IMG/VR virus record: IMGVR_UViG_3300031746_000051
Coordinates: 1 to 42,856 of that record
Origin: a virus
Length of the DNA stretch: 42,856 nucleotides
Direction: 5' to 3' (one strand)
In this document: piece by piece, positions 6,156 to 37,776 of the stretch
Layout of the letters: every line of letters begins with the position of its first letter
Position numbering within the stretch: the first letter of the stretch is position 1
Position numbers and translations under genes: made by a program
Notes under the pieces: model-generated
Database searches by the model: none
The model's input: only the letters and a program-made list of their open reading frames with translations
What the model was told of the DNA's origin: nothing

Positions 6156-6826
6156 CTATCTCTTGGAGAACATGTCCTTCATCGCATCCTGCATCTCGTC
6201 GATACTCATCGGAGAGCGCGGCTCGAACAGTCGAAGGAAATCCTCAATCCTTGGCCTGCGGCCCTTCTTGCCCGACCACACTTGGGCAACCAGGCACATC
6301 AAGGCGCTGAACCGCAGGTTCTGGGCCGATTCTCCGAACGGCTCGATCCGTTCAAGTATCTGCCACGAATGCAACTCAAGCGATGTCAGGCGTTCGCCTA
6401 ACTCGGCGACCGTCAACCCGAGATGGCCGGCGAGTCGGTACCTGAATCGCAGCTCGGGTTCGTCAACGAGTTTTTTTCGATTTGCTCCTGAGCGCCACTG
6501 GTCACGCCGGATAGGCGCAGAATCGCCTCGGCGATCGGCTCGGCAATCGCCGCCGGCAACTCATCGCACTTGGCGATATCGGCGGCACCGAACATTCTCG
6601 TGCCGTCGGGATTACGCAGACCCATCGTCAAAAGAATGGCACGTGAATGCTCGAACTTCACTGATCGTCGATTCCCGGAGCCCGAGGTAATCTCATCCTG
6701 GTATTGGCCGTATTCGGCGGCAGTCAGGCCGGCCACAAGCACCTGGCCGCCGGGTATGTCGATCCACTCAGTCGGCACCTTCAGACGCTGAGCCAGCAAT
6801 TGTTCCTTGGTTATCTGATTCATCAT
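6156..6826 (-). CDS. Tail assembly chaperone GT, made by -1 frameshift
   Basis: Fusion product of 223 residues: 119 codons of the G frame from ATG 6826, a -1 slip at the A AAA AAC heptamer (6476-6470), then 104 residues in the overlapping frame. The frame after the slip reads CTC GTT GAC GAA ..., giving LVDEPELRFRYRLAGH then LGLTVAELGERLTSLEL, which is the arrangement of lambda gpGT. The downstream frame has an ATG at 6416 but no good ribosome site, so the fusion is the likely product. gpGT coats the tape measure and recruits tail tube subunits during assembly; it is not in the finished virion. Confidence 0.85.
6413..6826 (-). CDS. Tail assembly chaperone G (zero-frame product)
   Basis: 137 residues from the ATG at 6826, preceded by AAAGGATTG; the open frame reaches TTG at 6838. 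Product of ribosomes that do not shift. Starts MMNQITKEQLLAQRLKVPTEWIDIPGG and ends SPAISG with TGA at 6413-6415. It works with GT as the soluble chaperone pair for the tape measure. The 5' end overlaps the preceding gene by 59 bp. Confidence 0.82.
   Translation of the reverse strand: MMNQITKEQLLAQRLKVPTEWIDIPGGQVLVAGLTAAEYGQYQDEITSGSGNRRSVKFEHSRAILLTMGLRNPDGTRMFGAADIAKCDELPAAIAEPIAEAILRLSGVTSGAQEQIEKNSLTNPSCDSGTDSPAISG
6470..6476 (-). promoter_or_regulatory. Programmed -1 ribosomal frameshift site, A AAA AAC
   Basis: On the minus strand the zero frame is ATC GAA AAA AAC TCG, giving the X XXY YYZ heptamer A AAA AAC. It lies 54 bases before the G-frame stop codon and joins the G frame to the T frame exactly where siphovirus chaperone genes shift. 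No strong downstream stem was found by eye. Confidence 0.85.
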
Positions 6827-7244
6827 CAATCCTTTCAACTTGTTTCGATTCGACCGCCACTGACGGGGCGACAGTCATTCCATTTGGGGATGGCTCACGC
6901 CATTTCAAATCCTTATCTTCAACGAGCCTGACAAAACCTTGTGCCGCCAACTCCAAACCTCGCGATCGATCGAGTGCGCGTATCTCGCCCACCTGGCCGC
7001 GAACATCCAACGGGTGGAACACATCCCGCAGGTACTCGAACTGTGCAACGTCAGGATGCAACTCACCTGTGGCCGATCTCTTATCGGCGCCCGGGCAATA
7101 TGAGTCATCGACCACTTCGATATAACCGGATCGAATCAACTGCTCGATGTCCGCCTGACTCGGCAGCTCCTTGATGTCACCTTTCTTGCCGCTGACGGCC
7201 AGGGGGTACTCTATCGTTCGTAAGTATCTGTACAACCTGCCCAT
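6768..7244 (-). CDS. Unknown tail-module protein with an internal duplication
   Basis: 158 residues, start ATG 7244 with AAAGGGGAC upstream. I do not recognise a family. It contains two copies of a ~42-residue unit: YRYLRTIEYPLAVSGKKGDI...LIRSGYIEVV (about 5-46) and FEYLRDVFHPLDVRGQVGEI...LAAQGFVRLV (about 69-110), each with YLR, PLxVxGxxGxI and a final GxxxxV. The 3' part contains a 24-bp GMAYA element in frame (read here as WREPSPNG), after which the sequence is poorly structured and overlaps the start of G, so the original gene may have ended near the element. Confidence 0.7.
   Translation of the reverse strand: MGRLYRYLRTIEYPLAVSGKKGDIKELPSQADIEQLIRSGYIEVVDDSYCPGADKRSATGELHPDVAQFEYLRDVFHPLDVRGQVGEIRALDRSRGLELAAQGFVRLVEDKDLKWREPSPNGMTVAPSVAVESKQVERIDDESDNQGTIAGSASEGAD
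6879..6902 (+). repeat. GMAYA element in the 158-aa tail-module gene
   Basis: 24-bp copy TCCATTTGGGG + ATGGCTCACGCCA; read on the coding strand as WREPSPNG. Lies 53 bp upstream of the chaperone G start. Confidence 0.8.
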
Positions 7245-7763: not shown

Positions 7764-7787
7764 TCCTCTTAGGGATGGCTTGTGCCA
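7764..7787 (+). repeat. GMAYA element upstream of the tail tube gene
   Basis: CTTAGGG-type 24-bp copy with GGCTTGTGCCA end. In the 114-bp gap before the tube gene, which also holds a direct repeat of ACTCCGGACTC (about 7815-7840). Confidence 0.8.
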
Positions 7788-12105: not shown

Positions 12106-12214
12106 GTTCGTATCCTTTCATTCACGTTTTGATTGTTGAACTCAGTTTGGCCCGCTGTTGACGGACCACTATCTCCTTAGGGATGGCTTACGCCATTATC
12201 GGGCACACCCGCTA
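12106..12214. other. Short gap holding a GMAYA element
   Basis: 109 bases between the zinc ribbon and decoration genes. It contains one 24-bp element at 12172-12195 (plus orientation, CTTAGGG type) and the ribosome site of the decoration gene; no hairpin with a U-run was seen. Confidence 0.7.
12172..12195 (+). repeat. GMAYA element between zinc ribbon and decoration genes
   Basis: CTTAGGG-type copy, otherwise exact in the GGGATGGCTTACGCCA core. Confidence 0.85.
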
Positions 12215-20538: not shown

Positions 20539-22493
20539 AGGTGAGGTATGTCATCCAGCCAACCTTCTTGTAAACCACGCTTGATCCTATTCACGCGTGG
20601 GTTCCGTGATTCGAGCCTTTGCAGCAATCGCGCCCCACAAACCTCAGCCGCGAATGCAGCATACACCTTGCAGTCCCACAAGTGGTTGGCTCGATACTCA
20701 CTTTTCAAAACCCAAATCAATCGGTCACGGCCTCGGATTCTCATCACCCGTTGCTCTTCGCTCGACAACTGGATCAAGACGTCATCGGTGGTATCTCTGT
20801 GCAGGTGATAGTACCCGGACCCGGGATTCGTCGCTTCAAACAACAGGCGGTACAGCCGGTTCTTCAGGTCATCCACATTGAGGTCATAACGAGTCAAGGT
20901 GCCCCCTGCGACCTTGACGGCCCTGAACAGCCGCATGCGAACCGTATCATCTCCGCGAACCGGAACAATCGGCAGTTCGGCGCACTGGCGACAAAAATCC
21001 AACACGACGTCCGGCCTGAATCCGCAATCAACTCCAATCTGTCGCAAAGGTAGTGACCGCATCGGGTCGTTAGCCAACGGCCAGGGTCTCCCCAAAAACT
21101 CGCGAACGATCTGGTAGTTGTCGAGCTCGCTCGTATCGCCAGTTTCCAATCGTCCCTCCCAGATCGACCACGCCTCCGACAGGTAGCCCCAGCCTTCGAC
21201 TGAGATCCATACATGGTCCATCTGAATGTCAACGCCGGCGGTCAGCATCTGAACACCGGCCGGCACAATACCCGCAGGATACTGCCCGATGTGCGTAAGC
21301 AGCCTGCTTTGTTCCGTCGCCTTCTCTGATTCCTTCCACGAATCCGACAGTTGCGAGTTGATGAAGTCCTGGCGGCCTCCAACATTGCCGGCCTTCATCA
21401 ACCGCATGGCATCGGACCAGTCCGCGGCAAGATCATCTACGGTCTGGATCGCGGGGTGGAGCATCAAAGCGGTAATGCGAAAACTGCGATATGTTGTTTG
21501 CGCCGGCTGACCCGTGAGCAACCCATGCTCGTCGAGGCTACATGATGATGGTACGTATCGACCGGCACAGGTCGCCAGCCAACGGTCCGTCTCAGACCAT
21601 TTGTGATGACAATGGCAGCAGGCATAGTTGGCCCGACCTCCACGCCGATAGACATCCGCCGACAAAAGCTCGCCGGACTCACTCTTATCGAGAATCACGC
21701 ACGCCCAACTCGGCCGCTGCCAGCGATTGCAGTGAGGACACGGCACCCACCATTCACAGCAATCACCCTTTTTCCATTCACGGTCGAATAGGTCATCCAG
21801 CAGCACCGGTGTGCTGAGAGCCAACAACTTCGACCGACCCCTGAACGTTCGCAACCGTTTGCGACCGAGGTTCACCGCGTCGCCCTCTCGGCCCGTTCTC
21901 TCCTCGTACTTGCCGACCTCGTCCAAGCACAGGCGACAGATCGGCTTGCCGGCCATCTCGGCAGCCGAGCCTGCAAACAGCAGGTAAAAGGCCATGTTGT
22001 CAAACATCGTCATCTTGCCGATGTTGATGTTCTTGACGTTGCCGGCGGTGTGCTTGAGCAATCGTAGATTTTCCTCGAACATAGGCTTGATGTTCGTCTC
22101 CACACGTTCAGACGCATCTTTCTCACGCGGCATAACCAGTCCCATCGGCACCGGGTCGCAATCGACTGTGTATCCTACCCAGCCCGTTGCCACCGTTGAC
22201 TTGCCCGATTGACTGCAGGCTGAAACCCATATTTCACGAGTGGCTGCATCGTTGAGACATTCAATGATCGGTACCCAGAAGGGTCCGTATTCTTGCGACC
22301 AATGATCGGATAGGCCATGAACCTTTTGCGACAGAAAATAGTCACTTTCCATCCAATCCAACAACCGCTTGCGGCCGCCCAGCGTCAAGACCTCCAATTC
22401 CTCCGGCTGGATCGCTAATGGTCGTATCGATCGTCTCTTCGTGTCCATTGGCGTAAGCCATCCCCAAGCGGACTTCCCTAACGGATTCGACAT
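20535..22493 (-). CDS. terL: Terminase large subunit (gpA family)
   Basis: 652 residues. ATPase: SACSQSGKST (91-100, Lys98, a deviant Walker A typical of the gpA family) and ICRLCLDE (185-192, Asp191-Glu192, Walker B). Extra Cys sites CPHC (252-255) and CCHC (292-295). Nuclease domain starts LTAGVDIQMDHVWISVEGWG (Asp422). N-terminal LSDHWSQEYGPFWVPIIECL is the gpA-type entry region. The start is uncertain: ATG 22493 (GGAAAG upstream) or ATG 22448. A 24-bp GMAYA element (22449-22472) separates the two, and in this frame it reads SAWGWLTP. Translocates DNA into proheads and cuts it. Confidence 0.93.
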   Translation of the reverse strand: MSNPLGKSAWGWLTPMDTKRRSIRPLAIQPEELEVLTLGGRKRLLDWMESDYFLSQKVHGLSDHWSQEYGPFWVPIIECLNDAATREIWVSACSQSGKSTVATGWVGYTVDCDPVPMGLVMPREKDASERVETNIKPMFEENLRLLKHTAGNVKNINIGKMTMFDNMAFYLLFAGSAAEMAGKPICRLCLDEVGKYEERTGREGDAVNLGRKRLRTFRGRSKLLALSTPVLLDDLFDREWKKGDCCEWWVPCPHCNRWQRPSWACVILDKSESGELLSADVYRRGGRANYACCHCHHKWSETDRWLATCAGRYVPSSCSLDEHGLLTGQPAQTTYRSFRITALMLHPAIQTVDDLAADWSDAMRLMKAGNVGGRQDFINSQLSDSWKESEKATEQSRLLTHIGQYPAGIVPAGVQMLTAGVDIQMDHVWISVEGWGYLSEAWSIWEGRLETGDTSELDNYQIVREFLGRPWPLANDPMRSLPLRQIGVDCGFRPDVVLDFCRQCAELPIVPVRGDDTVRMRLFRAVKVAGGTLTRYDLNVDDLKNRLYRLLFEATNPGSGYYHLHRDTTDDVLIQLSSEEQRVMRIRGRDRLIWVLKSEYRANHLWDCKVYAAFAAEVCGARLLQRLESRNPRVNRIKRGLQEGWLDDIPHL

Positions 22494-23595
22494 CCTTTGA
22501 CTTTCCGGGTAATCCTTGTGTCAATAATTCATATATGCCGTCAAGTATCTTAAGCGCCTGATTCGGCAGCAACAGCTCATCAGGTATCTTCTGCTGCTGC
22601 ACTATCATATCTCTGCGCCACATATCGAGTATTTCTTTGACCCGTTCAAGGGGTTGATTGACGATCATCATAGGTAGTTCCCGCACGAGCCGGTCCAGAC
22701 TGTGGATCAGGTTTTGATACCGCGCCACTTGACCTTCGATCACGATGGTGCGGTCCAAGAGATCGCCCCTGTGCTTCTGTAATTCGAGCGCCAACTTTTC
22801 GGCCTTGATCGCCCGCAAGGGGTCGCGGTCGCCCAAGATGTCTTTTGTTCGGGATAGTTTCTTCGCAACGAATTCTCCATACCAATTGATCGTGCTTTTC
22901 AGATCAAACGTGGCATCAACGTTTCGCGGCAACTGTTGTTTCGTGAACCATTCATATATGGTCTGGCGAGTGGTCGAAAAGAGGTCTGCCAACTGACTGA
23001 TGGTCACCCGATCGTAGTTGCTCTTGTCGGCAGAAGCCTCGCCCTCGTCGCGCAGAAATATCTCTATCGCTCGAATCGCGGCCTGGTTGCCTTCTTTTGC
23101 CGCATCGACCAAGGCTTTCTTGCTCGCCACTATAGTGACGAGTCGGGCTTGCCCCCAGAGGTTGCTCGCCTCGATGTCGCTGTCGAGTAACTCCCGCAGT
23201 TGCTGGCCATGTTCAAAGTCGAGTTTCTTGGCAGCCTGGCTGATCGTCAAGATCGCGCTGGCACACTCCTCGAGATTCTGGAGGAATTGACCTCTTTCCC
23301 ACGCCTTGGCCAGCACATCGTATCGCTCAATCAGCTCAGCTAACGGCTGATCGAGACCCGCCACCTTATCGGCCGCCGTCAAATTTACACAACCGTAAGC
23401 AAGCGACTTGACTCTGACCGCAGAGATCGGCAGACGCATTCGCTTGCGACGCTTTTTGCCCGACCGCGGACGTGAATTTTTTCCACTTGTGGCATAGGCC
23501 ATCCCTGAGTGGAGGGATGCCTTACGGCACTTGCGTGCGACCGGAGGTTGATCATCAATCGCTTTCTTCTTCACGGTGGCATCCTTGCTCATCAT
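22342..23595 (-). CDS. terS: Terminase small subunit-like DNA-binding protein
   Basis: 417 residues, long for TerS. A helix-turn-helix sits near the middle (RVTISQLADLFSTTRQTIYE then WFTKQQLPR, about 193-221), as in gpNu1-type proteins, flanked by helical regions. The N-terminus (1-60) is Lys/Arg-rich and includes a GMAYA pair (SGMAYATSG). The C-terminal ~47 residues after LGMAYANG overlap TerL in another frame and lie beyond a second element, so the pre-insertion gene may have ended near 22470. The first ATG (23595) has no Shine-Dalgarno and is six bases from the first GTCNN array. Start and end are therefore uncertain; the core assignment rests on the HTH and its place before TerL. Confidence 0.7.
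   Translation of the reverse strand: MMSKDATVKKKAIDDQPPVARKCRKASLHSGMAYATSGKNSRPRSGKKRRKRMRLPISAVRVKSLAYGCVNLTAADKVAGLDQPLAELIERYDVLAKAWERGQFLQNLEECASAILTISQAAKKLDFEHGQQLRELLDSDIEASNLWGQARLVTIVASKKALVDAAKEGNQAAIRAIEIFLRDEGEASADKSNYDRVTISQLADLFSTTRQTIYEWFTKQQLPRNVDATFDLKSTINWYGEFVAKKLSRTKDILGDRDPLRAIKAEKLALELQKHRGDLLDRTIVIEGQVARYQNLIHSLDRLVRELPMMIVNQPLERVKEILDMWRRDMIVQQQKIPDELLLPNQALKILDGIYELLTQGLPGKSKDVESVREVRLGMAYANGHEETIDTTISDPAGGIGGLDAGRPQAVVGLDGK
22449..22472 (-). repeat. GMAYA element at the terS/terL junction
   Basis: 24-bp element, identical to those at 23742-23765 and 37634-37657. It is open in both the terS frame (RLGMAYA) and the terL frame (SAWGWLTP), and lies in the overlap of the two genes. 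Confidence 0.85.
23490..23529. repeat. Inverted pair of GMAYA elements inside the terS start
   Basis: A minus copy (23490-23513) and a degenerate plus copy (23506-23529) share eight bases and together form a hairpin (CATCCCT, GAGTGG loop, AGGGATG). Encodes part of the N-terminal KASLHSGMAYATSG of the terS product. Confidence 0.75.
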
Positions 23596-23601
23596 AAAAA
23601 G

Positions 23602-23686
23602 GTCTTGTCATGTCTTGTCGCGTCAAGTCATGTCTGGTCGCGTCGCGTCATGTCCTATCACGTCGTGTCAGGTTCAGTCGCGTCGC
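23602..23686 (+). repeat. GTCNN array 1 (17 units)
   Basis: Strict 5-bp period of GTC followed by two variable bases; 15 units have GTC, one has ATC (23657) and one GTT (23672). Preceded by AAAAAG and followed by GTGTAAGATTCTTC. The array ends six bases before the terS ATG, so it forms the leader of the terS mRNA if transcribed from upstream. Confidence 0.93.
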
Positions 23687-23697
23687 GTGTAAGATTC

Positions 23698-23723
23698 TTC
23701 CCTTAGGGATGGCTAACGCTGTC
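23698..23723 (+). repeat. GMAYA element in the array 1-2 spacer
   Basis: CTTAGGG-type copy with a modified end (GGCTAACGCTG). The 23 bases 23701-23723 are absent from the otherwise matching spacer between arrays 4 and 5. Confidence 0.85.
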
Positions 23724-23741
23724 ATTCGTTCGCGGCGGCAC

Positions 23742-23765
23742 TCCGCTTGGGGATGGCTTACGCCA
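23742..23765 (+). repeat. GMAYA element, second in the array 1-2 spacer
   Basis: Exact consensus copy. The 24 bases are absent at the matching place in the array 4-5 spacer, where GGCGGCAC joins ATTGTCACCC directly. Confidence 0.9.
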
Positions 23766-23791
23766 ATTGTCACCCGTTCTTGTTGAAAAAG

Positions 23792-23871
23792 GTCTTGTCA
23801 TGTCGGGTCTTGTCATGTCCCGTCGAGTCTGGTCTCGTCAAGTCCAGTCAGGTCTGGTCGAGTCCGGTCGC
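23792..23871 (+). repeat. GTCNN array 2 (16 units)
   Basis: Sixteen units, all with GTC, no two neighbouring units alike. Begins GTCTT GTCAT like arrays 1, 3 and 4, after GTTGAAAAAG; ends GTCGC GTGTAAGAGTCTT. Confidence 0.93.
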
Positions 23872-23929
23872 GTGTAAGAGTCTTTATCCTCTGGCGGCGG
23901 CACATTGTCACCTGGTCTTGTTGAAAAAG

Positions 23930-24024
23930 GTCTTGTCATGTCTTGTCAGGTCTTGTCTTGTCATGTCTTGTCATGTCGCGTCCGGTCGGGTCTTGTCAAG
24001 TCTCGTCTTGTCTGGTCGGGTCTT
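23930..24024 (+). repeat. GTCNN array 3 (19 units)
   Basis: Nineteen units, all with GTC, the longest array; rich in the TT dinucleotide (8 of 19). It runs into the 3' end of the 62-aa gene on the minus strand, whose last residues (DPTRQDET) and stop codon it encodes. It lacks the GTGTAAGA trailer. Confidence 0.93.
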
Positions 24025-24184
24025 GCTGTTTGAGACGGTCCAAGCGGCGTTTCCGCTCCCAGTTGCGGTGTTTCAGCTCCCGGCTCAAGACTAAGGCTTC
24101 GTAAAGATCGTCGGGGGGCAGAATTTTTCTTGTCGCTTCAAGAGCTCGCCGCAGTTGCCGTGTTGACATATCTTCGATCTTCAT
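23996..24184 (-). CDS. Small helical protein ending inside GTCNN array 3
   Basis: 62 residues, ATG 24184 with AAGG ten bases upstream. MKIEDMSTRQLRRALEATRK ... ILPPDDLYEALVLSRELKHRNWERKRRLDRLKQQ is a charged, helical sequence. The array supplies its last ~8 residues. It is the first gene upstream of the arrays and terS; unknown function, possibly DNA binding from its charge. Confidence 0.6.
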   Translation of the reverse strand: MKIEDMSTRQLRRALEATRKILPPDDLYEALVLSRELKHRNWERKRRLDRLKQQDPTRQDET

Positions 24185-26311: not shown

Positions 26312-26396
26312 GTCTTGTCATGTCTTGTCAGGTCAGGTCGCGTCACGTCAAGTCAAGTCGCGTCAGGTCGGGTCTCGTCGGGTCGTGTCGTGTCGC
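26312..26396 (+). repeat. GTCNN array 4 (17 units)
   Basis: Seventeen units, all with GTC. Begins GTCTT GTCAT GTCTT after a run of A and ends GTCGC GTGTAAGATTCTTC exactly as array 1. Sits 67 bp upstream of the 129-aa early gene. Confidence 0.93.
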
Positions 26397-26455
26397 GTGT
26401 AAGATTCTTCATTCGTTCGCGGCGGCACATTGTCACCCGTTTCGGTCTTAAAAAG

Positions 26456-26535
26456 GTCTTGTCGTGTCTTGTCATGTCACGTCATGTCTTGTCAGGTCCG
26501 GTCACGTCTTGTCAAGTCTGGTCATGTCGTGTCGT
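26456..26535 (+). repeat. GTCNN array 5 (16 units)
   Basis: Sixteen units, all with GTC; second unit GTCGT instead of GTCAT. Preceded by TTAAAAAG. Ends in TTTTAG without the GTGTAAGA trailer, like array 3 at the other locus, so in each locus the last array is the one without a trailer. Confidence 0.93.
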
Positions 26536-26925
26536 TTTAGTTGCGCCTATCCCAGTGTCGTCCGCGACGCGGGCCGACATAGCCACTATAAAAGCATCGT
26601 TTCGACTTGGTTAAGGGTAGGATCATGTGACTTTTGGGTTCTCTTTGTTTATCCTTTTGGGACCACCAAAAACACACGTAATCGTAACATCTCAAATGCC
26701 TGCCCCAGACCCAATTCCACATTGATGCAAACGATGTGCGCCTGTTCTCGATCATCCTTCATTCTAAATTCAAACAGTCCGCTCTGTTCTGATATCCGCA
26801 TCCTGCAACAGAGCGGACGCCGTCCTTGAGATATTGGCAGGCATTTACTCCTTGATGTGTGTATTATAGATGGGGCGGTTTGGAAGAGCTTATGGGCACC
26901 GCCCCACCATCGGGAGGAAACGGGT
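26536..26925. other. Intergenic region with two inverted repeats
   Basis: A 72-codon minus-strand frame (26537-26755) ends at the array border; it is Trp/Arg-rich and unlikely to be a gene. GTCCGCTCTGTT (26777-26788) and AACAGAGCGGAC (26807-26818) form a perfect 12-bp inverted repeat with an 18-base loop. GGGGCGGT/ACCGCCCC (26872-26905) lies just after the lipoprotein stop and may terminate it, though no clean U-run follows. Confidence 0.6.
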
Positions 26926-32060: not shown

Positions 32061-34088
<2,028 letters not shown>

Positions 34089-34171: not shown

Positions 34172-34195
34172 TGGCGTAAGCCATCCTCAAGCAGA
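34172..34195 (-). repeat. GMAYA element
   Basis: 24-bp minus-orientation copy with two changes from the consensus (CATCCTCAAGCAGA end). Nearest of the region to the ligase start. Confidence 0.8.
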
Positions 34196-34202
34196 GAAGA
34201 TA

Positions 34203-34243
34203 TGGCGTAAGCCATCCCCTGGCATAAGCCATCCCAAAGCGGA
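34203..34243 (-). repeat. Truncated plus complete GMAYA element in tandem
   Basis: A 17-base truncated copy (34203-34219, TGGCGTAAGCCATCCCC) runs directly into a complete 24-bp copy (34220-34243). This looks like one copy inserted into the end of another, or slippage. Confidence 0.8.
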
Positions 34244-34248
34244 AATCA

Positions 34249-34321
34249 GAAAGAAGGCCCGCCCTGCGGCTTATCGCCTCTGCCGACAGAGGCGACTCGG
34301 ACAGCGGCCGGACGGGCCCTT
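34249..34321 (-). terminator. Terminator-like hairpin 1
   Basis: Outer arms GGGCCC-region (34314-34319) and AAGGCCCG (34254-34261), inner perfect hairpin CGCCTCTG-CCGA-CAGAGGCG (34275-34294); followed on the minus strand by TTCTTTC. Confidence 0.6.
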
Positions 34322-34350
34322 GTATGGAGGAAGCATACGACGGAACTGTC

Positions 34351-34399
34351 GAAAGAAAATAGCCCGCTCTATCTGGTCTGGCATCCGCAAGAGCGGGCT
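34351..34399 (-). terminator. Terminator-like hairpin 2
   Basis: AGCCCGCTCT (34361-34370) pairs perfectly with AGAGCGGGCT (34390-34399), 19-base loop; minus strand continues ATTTTCTTTC. Confidence 0.7.
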
Positions 34400-34432
34400 G
34401 GGCAATGAGGATTATGCCGAGGAAAAAACCAG

Positions 34433-34456
34433 TGGCGTAAGCCATCCCCAAGTGGA
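34433..34456 (-). repeat. GMAYA element abutting hairpin 3
   Basis: Minus-orientation 24-bp copy differing from the consensus only by A/G at the variable base. Its end merges into the A-run that is the U-run of hairpin 3. Confidence 0.85.
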
Positions 34457-34521
34457 AAAAAAGACGGCCCGCTATGGTTTGATTTCTCGCCTGGGGCGAG
34501 TTGGCATCAGCACGCGGGCCG
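34455..34521 (-). terminator. Terminator-like hairpin 3
   Basis: Outer CGGCCCGC/GCGGGCCG (34465-34472, 34514-34521), inner CTCGCC-TGG-GGCGAG (34486-34500), followed on the minus strand by TCTTTTTTT. The best terminator of the three. Confidence 0.72.
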
Positions 34522-34709
34522 AGGTTCGCTATCAGGTTGTCCGAGCAAGTTGATATTGCTGATGCCATGACTATGAATCCTTTCCGTTAAACCATGAACC
34601 TATGATCCCCAATTCGCGGGGAGAAGTCAAGGAAAATCTTGGGTTTCCAAGAAGAAATCTCTAATTTCATGGGCGACAGTGACTTACAAAGACAATAGAC
34701 AATCAAATC

Positions 34710-36680: not shown

Positions 36681-36694
36681 CGGCCCAGCCTCCT

Positions 36695-36842
36695 AAAAAA
36701 GATCGCCCGCGGCATCTGAGCTGGACACTCGAAGATAGTCCGCGGGCGGTCAGTTATTCTCTCTACTTGACTTGTCGTGATTTGAGTGTCCAGCTCATAA
36801 TTTACCACTGGTAATCATATCCCAAGAGCGCCCCGGCGTCAA
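36695..36842 (-). promoter_or_regulatory. Promoter, leader peptide and attenuator 1
   Basis: Minus strand: -35 TTGACG (36842-36837), 17-base gap, -10 TATGAT (36819-36814); leader frame MSWTLKSRQVK (36798-36763); terminator stem GACCGCCCGCGG/CCGCGGGCGATC (36751-36740, 36712-36701) and T6 (36700-36695), directly before the AGGAGG of the 197-aa gene. A second 13-bp stem, GAGCTGGACACTC/GAGTGTCCAGCTC (36796-36784, 36730-36718), crosses the terminator, so the two cannot form together as simple hairpins. Confidence 0.78.
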
Positions 36843-37096
36843 GAAAATTCAGGCCAAAATCTGAAAAATCAGAAAATTTCGCATTCTTTTTTTAATAACC
36901 ATCCAGACTGCAAAAAGTCTCTCTATAAGGGATAAGAAGGCCTCTGGCTGGCCCGCTGCTGGCCGATCCCTCCACAGGGCACATTCTTCCCGTAACTCAG
37001 TTCCTCGCAGCCGCCGGCTTAGCCGTTGATTTGCCTGGGCCAACGTAGAAGGTGGTCTAACTGAATCCGGGAATTGGTTAATGGCATGAGCCATCC
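36843..37096. other. Intergenic region between the two leader units
   Basis: No gene accepted. An 81-aa minus frame (36849-37094) begins inside a GMAYA element and is Arg-rich. GATAAGAAGGCCTCTGGCTG (36931-36950) repeats, with one change, a sequence at 35802-35821 just after the hairpins there. Confidence 0.6.
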
Positions 37097-37105
37097 CTAA
37101 GTGGA
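37082..37105 (-). repeat. GMAYA element at the end of the 69-aa gene
   Basis: CTTAGGG-type copy; its TAG supplies the stop codon of the 69-aa gene (HQST then stop). Confidence 0.8.
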
Positions 37106-37306
37106 TTGGTGATTCCTATCTTCACGCCAATACCGTTGTCCTTCCGCATTTATAATCAGTTCTTTATGGTTTTCATCTTCCCAGATTTCTTCCGGCGTAA
37201 GGATTTGGGTCGTTCCTTCCCAAATTATGGAAACAATAAAATCCTGCTTGTATTTCTTGAGTTCCTCGATAAGTTGACCAACCGTCATTGCATTTTTCGG
37301 TATCAC
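37097..37306 (-). CDS. Small protein behind attenuator 2
   Basis: 69 residues from GTG 37306 with GGAG six bases upstream: start IPKNAMTVGQLIEELKKYKQ, DFIVSIIWEGTTQILTPEEI, WEDENHKELIINAEGQRYW. The frame extends to 37351, but that would run through the terminator stem. Resembles small phage proteins with a MTVGQLIEELKKY helix. Ends in the GMAYA element. Confidence 0.68.
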   Translation of the reverse strand: MIPKNAMTVGQLIEELKKYKQDFIVSIIWEGTTQILTPEEIWEDENHKELIINAEGQRYWREDRNHQST

Positions 37307-37316
37307 GTCTATCTCC

Positions 37317-37453
37317 AAAAAGCGATCGCCCACGGTCTTTAAGTTGGACACTCGAAGATGATCCGTAGGCGATCAGTTAGAATCATTGCCTGTCGTGACT
37401 TGAGTGTCCAACTCATAAGGTCATATTCTACCTCGATGAGCAGACGACGACAA
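37317..37453 (-). promoter_or_regulatory. Promoter, leader peptide and attenuator 2
   Basis: Homologue of leader 1. -35 TTGTCG (37453-37448), 17-base gap, -10 TAGAAT (37430-37425); leader frame starting MSWTLKSRQ and ending 26 codons on (37416-37339); terminator stem GATCGCCTACGG/CCGTGGGCGATC followed by GC and T5 (37321-37317), then GGAG of the 69-aa gene; crossing stem GAGTTGGACACTC/GAGTGTCCAACTT. Base pairs differ from leader 1 in compensating pairs. Confidence 0.78.
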
Positions 37454-37470: not shown

Positions 37471-37776
37471 TTATTGTGGATTGCCTGGCGGGCCTGCCCG
37501 GGTGGGCTCAGGCCATGATGGCGTGAAGCATCCCTGCGTGGATTGATGAGTCCGTTTTGCCCGTCCGAACGTTGAGGTACGCTCCTTCACGAGTCTTAAG
37601 AAGCACTGGTAGCACGGGTAGCGATTCAAACCTTCCGCTTGGGGATGGCTTACGCCAATGGCGGATTCGCCGACATCGACAAAGCCGGGCTTGCCACACG
37701 CACACCGGTATCGAGTGCCCTCGTTCCCACCTTCGGGCAGATGAATCCCTACGGCGGAGTCTGCCTGATCTGCCAT
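37471..37776 (-). CDS. Zinc-ribbon protein interrupted in frame by two GMAYA elements
   Basis: 101 residues from ATG 37776, overlapping the holin-like stop (TGATG). CACGKPGFVDVG and CYQCFLRLVKER supply the two halves of a ribbon. Between them the element at 37634-37657 is translated as GVSHPQAE, and near the C-terminus a second (37519-37542) as STQGCFTP. Without the first element the two Cys pairs would be about as far apart as in ordinary ribbons. Confidence 0.65.
   Translation of the reverse strand: MADQADSAVGIHLPEGGNEGTRYRCACGKPGFVDVGESAIGVSHPQAEGLNRYPCYQCFLRLVKERTSTFGRAKRTHQSTQGCFTPSWPEPTRAGPPGNPQ
37519..37542 (-). repeat. GMAYA element, degenerate
   Basis: 24-bp minus copy with changes at the GGGATGG core (GGGATGC, TTCACGCC). 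Inside the 3' part of the zinc-ribbon gene. Confidence 0.7.
37634..37657 (+). repeat. GMAYA element inside the zinc-ribbon gene
   Basis: Identical to the copies at 22449-22472 and 23742-23765. In frame between the two Cys pairs. Confidence 0.9.

Follow-up and report, generated by a model that had tools for sequence, protein, structure and literature searches.

To our knowledge, repeat units as small as the 24-mer described here were known before mainly from cyanobacteria. The small dispersed repeats (SDRs) of Nostoc, reportedly described by Elhai et al. in 2008, are said to be 21 to 27 nt long, to form hairpins with compensatory changes, to nest within one another, and to reside in short tandem (heptamer) arrays. 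An RNA route was earlier suggested for these cyanobacterial SDRs. Three papers cite SDRs of Nostoc and its relatives (PMC4390886, PMC3116915, PMC2884548), and the first of them describes the insertion of SDR5 as precise and located within HIP1 (PMC4390886). Other short elements include REPs of 20 to 40 bp, which are mobile as REPINs (PMC3116915), and tagged REPs (PMC3733652). Rickettsia palindromic elements (~100 to 150 bp) insert in frame into unrelated conserved genes (PMC2229807, PMC10969869). Mitochondrial GC clusters, or double-hairpin elements, are short and palindromic, display occupied and empty sites, and have units that merge (PMC4478555); GC42, for example, has 42 nt and AG or ACT flanking repeats (PMC4478555).

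The window, i.e., the whole stretch of DNA that was analyzed, corresponds to a phage record from IMG/VR with a length of 42,856 bases. The same 253 bases, apart from one mismatch, are found at both of its ends, it carries terminase, portal, capsid, and tail genes, and a Pfam scan identified a phage integrase (30281-31267) and an NAD ligase (32061-34088). These features make an almost complete temperate phage probable. NNGTC pentamer arrays, in which the first two bases vary freely, are present at 23607-24030 and 26317-26540. Three spacers between these arrays were compared:

23687-23791, plus strand: spacer separating array 1 from array 2, with an insert at each of the two sites
23872-23930, plus strand: outgroup, a more divergent spacer that separates array 2 from array 3 and has no insert at either site
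26397-26455, plus strand: spacer separating array 4 from array 5, with no insert at either site

According to the sequence-only reading, spacer 1-2 is spacer 4-5 with two inserts of 23 and 24 bases. The comparison confirmed this, since removal of 23701-23723 and 23742-23765 left no mismatch between the two spacers over their first 45 bases. Both inserts had been assigned to the same family, which held for the 24-base insert; this insert has a unique placement, and its sequence recurs. The 23-base insert, with three equivalent placements (start at 23699, 23700, or 23701), is a degenerate copy and scored only 14.3 bits (E = 0.15) when submitted alone to the covariance model described below. The spacer pair had also been taken as direct evidence for the precise gain of a 24-bp unit. 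Gain is borne out at many independent sites (nests, lipA, XerD, and GH2), but gain and loss are symmetrical in the spacer pair alone and become separable once spacer 2-3 and the host genomes are considered. Spacer 2-3, which differs by 8 to 11 bases from the other two, was likewise empty at both points. One gain per site is a simpler account of this pattern than two losses, and the alignment of the three spacers favors insertion.

The 24-mer, read as TGGCGTAAGCCATCCCCAAGCGGA, is composed of two adjacent 12-base hairpins with 4-bp stems and the successive consensus sequences YGSC-GTAA-GSCR and TCCC-YAAG-NGGA. Among 53 distinct 24-mer sequences, pairing was found in 90% of the cells, and 29 cells were compensatory in comparison to a mean of 9.7 for shuffled alignments, with none of the 500 shuffles scoring as high. 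In hairpin 1, G-C was replaced by C-G at pair 3-10 in 22 sequences and T-A by C-G at pair 1-12 in 5 sequences. In hairpin 2, two pairs had one compensatory sequence each, and the fourth pair was formed in 16 of the 53 sequences. Covariation thus backs hairpin 1 strongly and hairpin 2 weakly. Folding of the RNA version of the 24-mer yielded both hairpins. A single long hairpin was rejected as the conserved fold, its covariation being no higher than that of the shuffles, and a search of the window against Rfam at E ≤ 1 gave no match. The 24-mer corresponds to eight codons and is open in five of six frames, which enables it to survive inside genes.

A covariance model built from window and host copies gave 13 matches in the window at E < 1e-3, leading to a total of ~15 elements with the degenerate 23-mer and one split copy. 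These copies are mostly intergenic or at gene ends, and those at 22449, 23742, and 37634 are letter-identical:

6879-6902, plus strand: element within ORF 6768-7244, close to its 3' end and in frame (covariance model)
7764-7787, plus strand: intergenic element (covariance model)
12172-12195, plus strand: intergenic element (covariance model)
22449-22472, minus strand: element at the junction of the small and large terminase genes, open in both overlapping frames (covariance model)
23482-23529, plus strand: outer element TCCACTTG^GGGATGCCTTACGGCA, split by the inner one into 23482-23489 (left) and 23514-23529 (right)
23490-23513, minus strand: inner element TGGCATAGGCCATCCCTGAGTGGA, inside the outer element at 23482-23529 and in the opposite orientation
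23701-23723, plus strand: degenerate 23-base element with a loop of three bases in hairpin 2, TCCC-TTA-GGGA (alternatives, 23699-23721 and 23700-23722)
23742-23765, plus strand: 24-base element TCCGCTTGGGGATGGCTTACGCCA, placeable in one way only, with no duplication of the target
34172-34195, minus strand: element (covariance model)
34203-34250, minus strand: outer element split after base 17 (34203-34219, with a diverged remainder at 34244-34250)
34220-34243, minus strand: inner element of this second nested pair (covariance model)
34433-34456, minus strand: element (covariance model)
37082-37105, minus strand: element overlapping the end of ORF 37097-37351 (covariance model)
37519-37542, minus strand: degenerate element (covariance model)
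37634-37657, plus strand: element with the same letters as those at 23742 and 22449 (covariance model)

Other structured sequences are present in this part of the phage. At 34244-34530, 24-mer copies separate three GGCCCG..CGGGCC hairpin modules. A pseudoknot-like structure is present in two copies (36690-36800 and 37313-37418; 73%), each near the start of a minus-strand ORF. In this structure, GATCGCCCGCGG pairs with CCGCGGGCGGTC and the loop GAGCTGGACACTC pairs with the downstream sequence GAGTGTCCAGCTC, with matching changes in copy 2. The structure is a possible riboregulator.

The covariance model detected the 24-mer in 53 of the 161 genomes of one Phycisphaerae order, the richest containing at least 34, at least 31, and at least 27 copies. 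These copy numbers are lower bounds, and the host genomes are apparently draft assemblies. A search of species-representative genomes with the core sequence returned matches in only two assemblies, both from Phycisphaerae (STB_133 and STA_45), and a class-wide sample gave only single weak matches, in genomes absent from the results of the order search. The exact core is almost missing from the rest of the phylum. In IMG/VR, the exact full 24-mer was not found outside the window, and the shorter core gave only single matches per contig. Copy density is ~1 per 3 kb in the phage versus ~1 per 77 kb in host genome G154. Genomes of this Phycisphaerae order also contain relatives of the large terminase (TerL) that share up to 51% identity with it, from which we infer that the host range of the phage includes this order. 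The 24-mer is a host-order repeat also carried by a phage and is not phage specific. Three TerL relatives from IMG/VR had no 24-mer at the matching positions, and the terminase junction could not be aligned with phage relatives. In genome G001, most copies lie inside a composite repeat of ~90 bases (GGAGCGAAGCGACGAATCAATCT..AGATTCTTCGTCCGCC, e.g., L026-L048), along with which they may have spread. Short tandem arrays holding 24-mers are made of NNGTC pentamers or, in G034, G040, and G041, of NACAGAA heptamers.

Two other palindromic sequences were observed in the course of these comparisons. Sibling phages L009 and L010 from IMG/VR, 99.2% identical over 9.15 kb, differ through a single large gap, which corresponds to a palindromic insert of 30 bases (GCTGTCCCGAGCGAAGTCGAGGGATCTCGC) located just upstream of the large terminase match. 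In G071 and G072 (L136-L149), the 24-mer interrupts a different double hairpin, AGTCCTAAGGACTC^CTTACGGAG, which is a candidate second family.

Nests were detected by removing one element and rejoining its flanks, which restored another element. In the window, rejoining 23482-23489 and 23514-23529 produced TCCACTTGGGGATGCCTTACGGCA, a perfect 24-mer, and the reversed orientation of the inner copy rules out tandem slippage for that nest. More nests were found in several genomes (L097, L101, L103, L111, L112, L113, L114, L135, and L137). Some of the G071 and G072 nests are weaker evidence, since both copies have the same orientation and could be tandem duplications. The outer copy was split after base 16 or 17 in nearly all clear nests, the exceptions being L133 (after base 14) and L152 (after base 18). 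Nested copies imply insertion into a pre-existing element.

A target logo was established for 58 non-redundant sites. C was found at position −4 in 50% of the sites (p = 7e-6), A or T at −2 in 79% (G in 3%), C at −1 in 45%, and A or T at +2 in 80%; fainter preferences were seen at +3 and +6. The signal extends mainly from −4 to +3, and the flanks are otherwise unrelated. The preferred bases at −4, −2, −1, and +2 thus make up a weak target motif of the 24-mer, and its localization on both sides is the expected trace of enzymatic insertion. No target-site duplication was found at lipA, in the spacers, or in the nests. The absence of duplication and a preference residing largely within the four nucleotides 5' to the unit are reminiscent of single-strand transposition of the IS200/IS605 type. 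Copies did not always travel with longer flanking homology, as they occupy unrelated sites with unrelated flanks, the composite repeat of G001 apart. A hairpin is not needed at the target, the rate of hairpins at targets being that of the controls; L119 and the nests lie at a stem/loop edge.

Half of the copies fetched from G154 (10 of 20) are open in frame inside long ORFs. In lipA of this genome, the 24-mer TGCCGTAAGGCATCCCCCAGCGGA is translated as CRKASPSG in the context PDF-CRKASPSG-QNCQ, and an exact 8-residue gap was present at this position in 29 of the 29 other orthologues examined from the order. Exact 8-residue gaps also coincided with the element in XerD, in comparison to solved structures 5dcf and 1a0p, and in a GH2 enzyme, in comparison to 7sf2. 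MutS and a GltD-like gene were dropped as proof of insertion, because the gaps at the element were not of exactly 8 residues. One surface loop of LipA is a hotspot for in-frame inserts, at least three other palindromic element types being present in different lineages (L190, L193, and L215-L220, in G158, G152, G060-G064, G072, and G161).

Based on sequence comparisons, the 24-mer is very probably an SDR-like, very small mobile repeat that inserts as a whole unit, belongs to one Phycisphaerae order, and is carried by a phage. Its structure, insertion, and exactness, its target bias and distribution, its presence in both orientations, and its self-nesting are shown by these comparisons. The 24-mer resembles SDRs in its length, in its copy number (at least 34 in the richest genome and ~15 in the window), in its compensatory hairpins, in its self-nesting, in the occurrence of occupied and empty orthologous sites, and in residing in short tandem arrays, which are heptamers for SDRs and NNGTC pentamers or NACAGAA heptamers for the 24-mer. 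It apparently differs from SDR1 to SDR8 in its sequence and belongs to a different phylum, and unlike SDRs as described it is carried by a phage, occurs in frame in conserved genes, and has a weak target motif instead of HIP1. In-frame intragenic insertion is common to the 24-mer and Rickettsia palindromic elements, although the latter are far longer (~100 to 150 bp versus 24 bp). Occupied and empty sites and the merging of units are also shared with GC clusters, but these are organellar and have flanking repeats, whereas the 24-mer generates no target duplication. The 24-mer is not a MITE as defined by terminal inverted repeats and target-site duplication, as no duplication was found at any of the sites listed above. 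The sequence-only reading had placed 24 bp well under the size of all transposable elements known so far, which is wrong, because SDRs of this size and mobile REPs are known. What is new is a phage-borne, gene-inserting family similar to SDRs as these are described, and our literature search found no earlier phage-borne, gene-inserting, order-wide 24-mer family.

Two explanations dispense with mobility or with gain. Precise loss, in which ancestral elements were cleanly deleted from spacers and genes, agrees with the symmetry of spacers 1-2 and 4-5 but is extremely unlikely in view of the empty, diverged third spacer, of the eight codons missing from all 29 lipA orthologues examined, and of the nests, which require an earlier element as the insertion target. 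Unequal recombination among arrays or tandem slippage is just as hard to believe and is not viable as the sole cause: the spacers do lie within repetitive NNGTC arrays and some same-orientation nests could be duplications, but copies are found at unrelated sites with unrelated flanks and in conserved genes, and one nest combines opposite orientations. The repeated gain of a selected, non-selfish cis-regulatory hairpin would account for phage copies that are mostly intergenic or at gene ends. We consider it quite improbable, because copies in both orientations, in-frame copies in housekeeping genes, and nests fit selfish insertion better and because the three TerL relatives from IMG/VR lack a copy at the matching positions.

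The identity of the mobilizing activity is a separate matter. REPs, which are mobile in trans, have a size (20 to 40 nt) similar to that of the 24-mer and are likewise palindromic and dispersed, and mobilization by a RAYT (Y1/HUH) transposase would agree with the hairpins, with the absence of target duplication, and with the presence of Y1_Tnp genes in 14 of the 14 host genomes tested. However, the 24-mer was within 1.5 kb of only 1 of the 42 Y1_Tnp loci of these genomes, which is about the chance level and provides no RAYT linkage. In addition, it has no unpaired GTAG/CGTC tag beside the stem-loop (alignments A1 and A2), has two stems of only 4 bp instead of one long stem, and is often intragenic, as are half of the copies fetched from G154. 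In G152, a palindrome of a different type, TTAGCCCTGCCAT..ATGGCAGGG, borders the Y1 locus on both sides, and lipA of this genome contains a relative of that palindrome. A RAYT proper is therefore doubtful as the mobilizing enzyme. This G152 locus (L160), with its Y1_Tnp gene and palindromes, is likely a RAYT with its own REP. RNA-mediated copying, in which a GUAA-capped hairpin RNA would undergo reverse splicing or ligation followed by reverse transcription, has somewhat better prospects but is still unlikely. It would be consistent with the GNRA-type loop, the exact ends, the formation of both hairpins in the RNA fold, and a size and habits reportedly similar to those of SDRs, but no reverse transcriptase was present among the window proteins scanned; the Pfam scan of ten window ORFs detected neither HUH nor reverse transcriptase genes. 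The remaining weight is left to another, putative enzyme.

In the reading that we favor, the mobile repeat enters new sites as a complete unit and in both orientations. It has a weak preference among targets, does not duplicate them, and brings no neighboring DNA along. A host function would provide the movement in trans, and we judge it most likely that the hairpin is copied either as a single strand, in a HUH/Y1-like manner, or from an RNA template. The temperate phage has gathered ~15 copies in this way, most of them intergenic or at the ends of genes. A bolder and less probable possibility is an undescribed, dedicated transposition system for which the 24-nt double hairpin alone would be the mobile unit, with a motif at its targets, a self-insertion point after base 16 or 17, phages as the vehicle between hosts, and in-frame copies that give core enzymes eight-residue loops.

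How DNA units of ~20 nt move has been an open question since SDRs were described. The 24-mer family offers exact, polarized insertions in the universal gene lipA, a target logo, and a preferred self-nesting point, and the mechanism can be tested by relating the genes present in each of the 161 genomes of a single order to the number of copies found there. The element-dense phage is a possible vehicle, which can also be tested, and 24-bp inserts can give housekeeping proteins eight extra residues.
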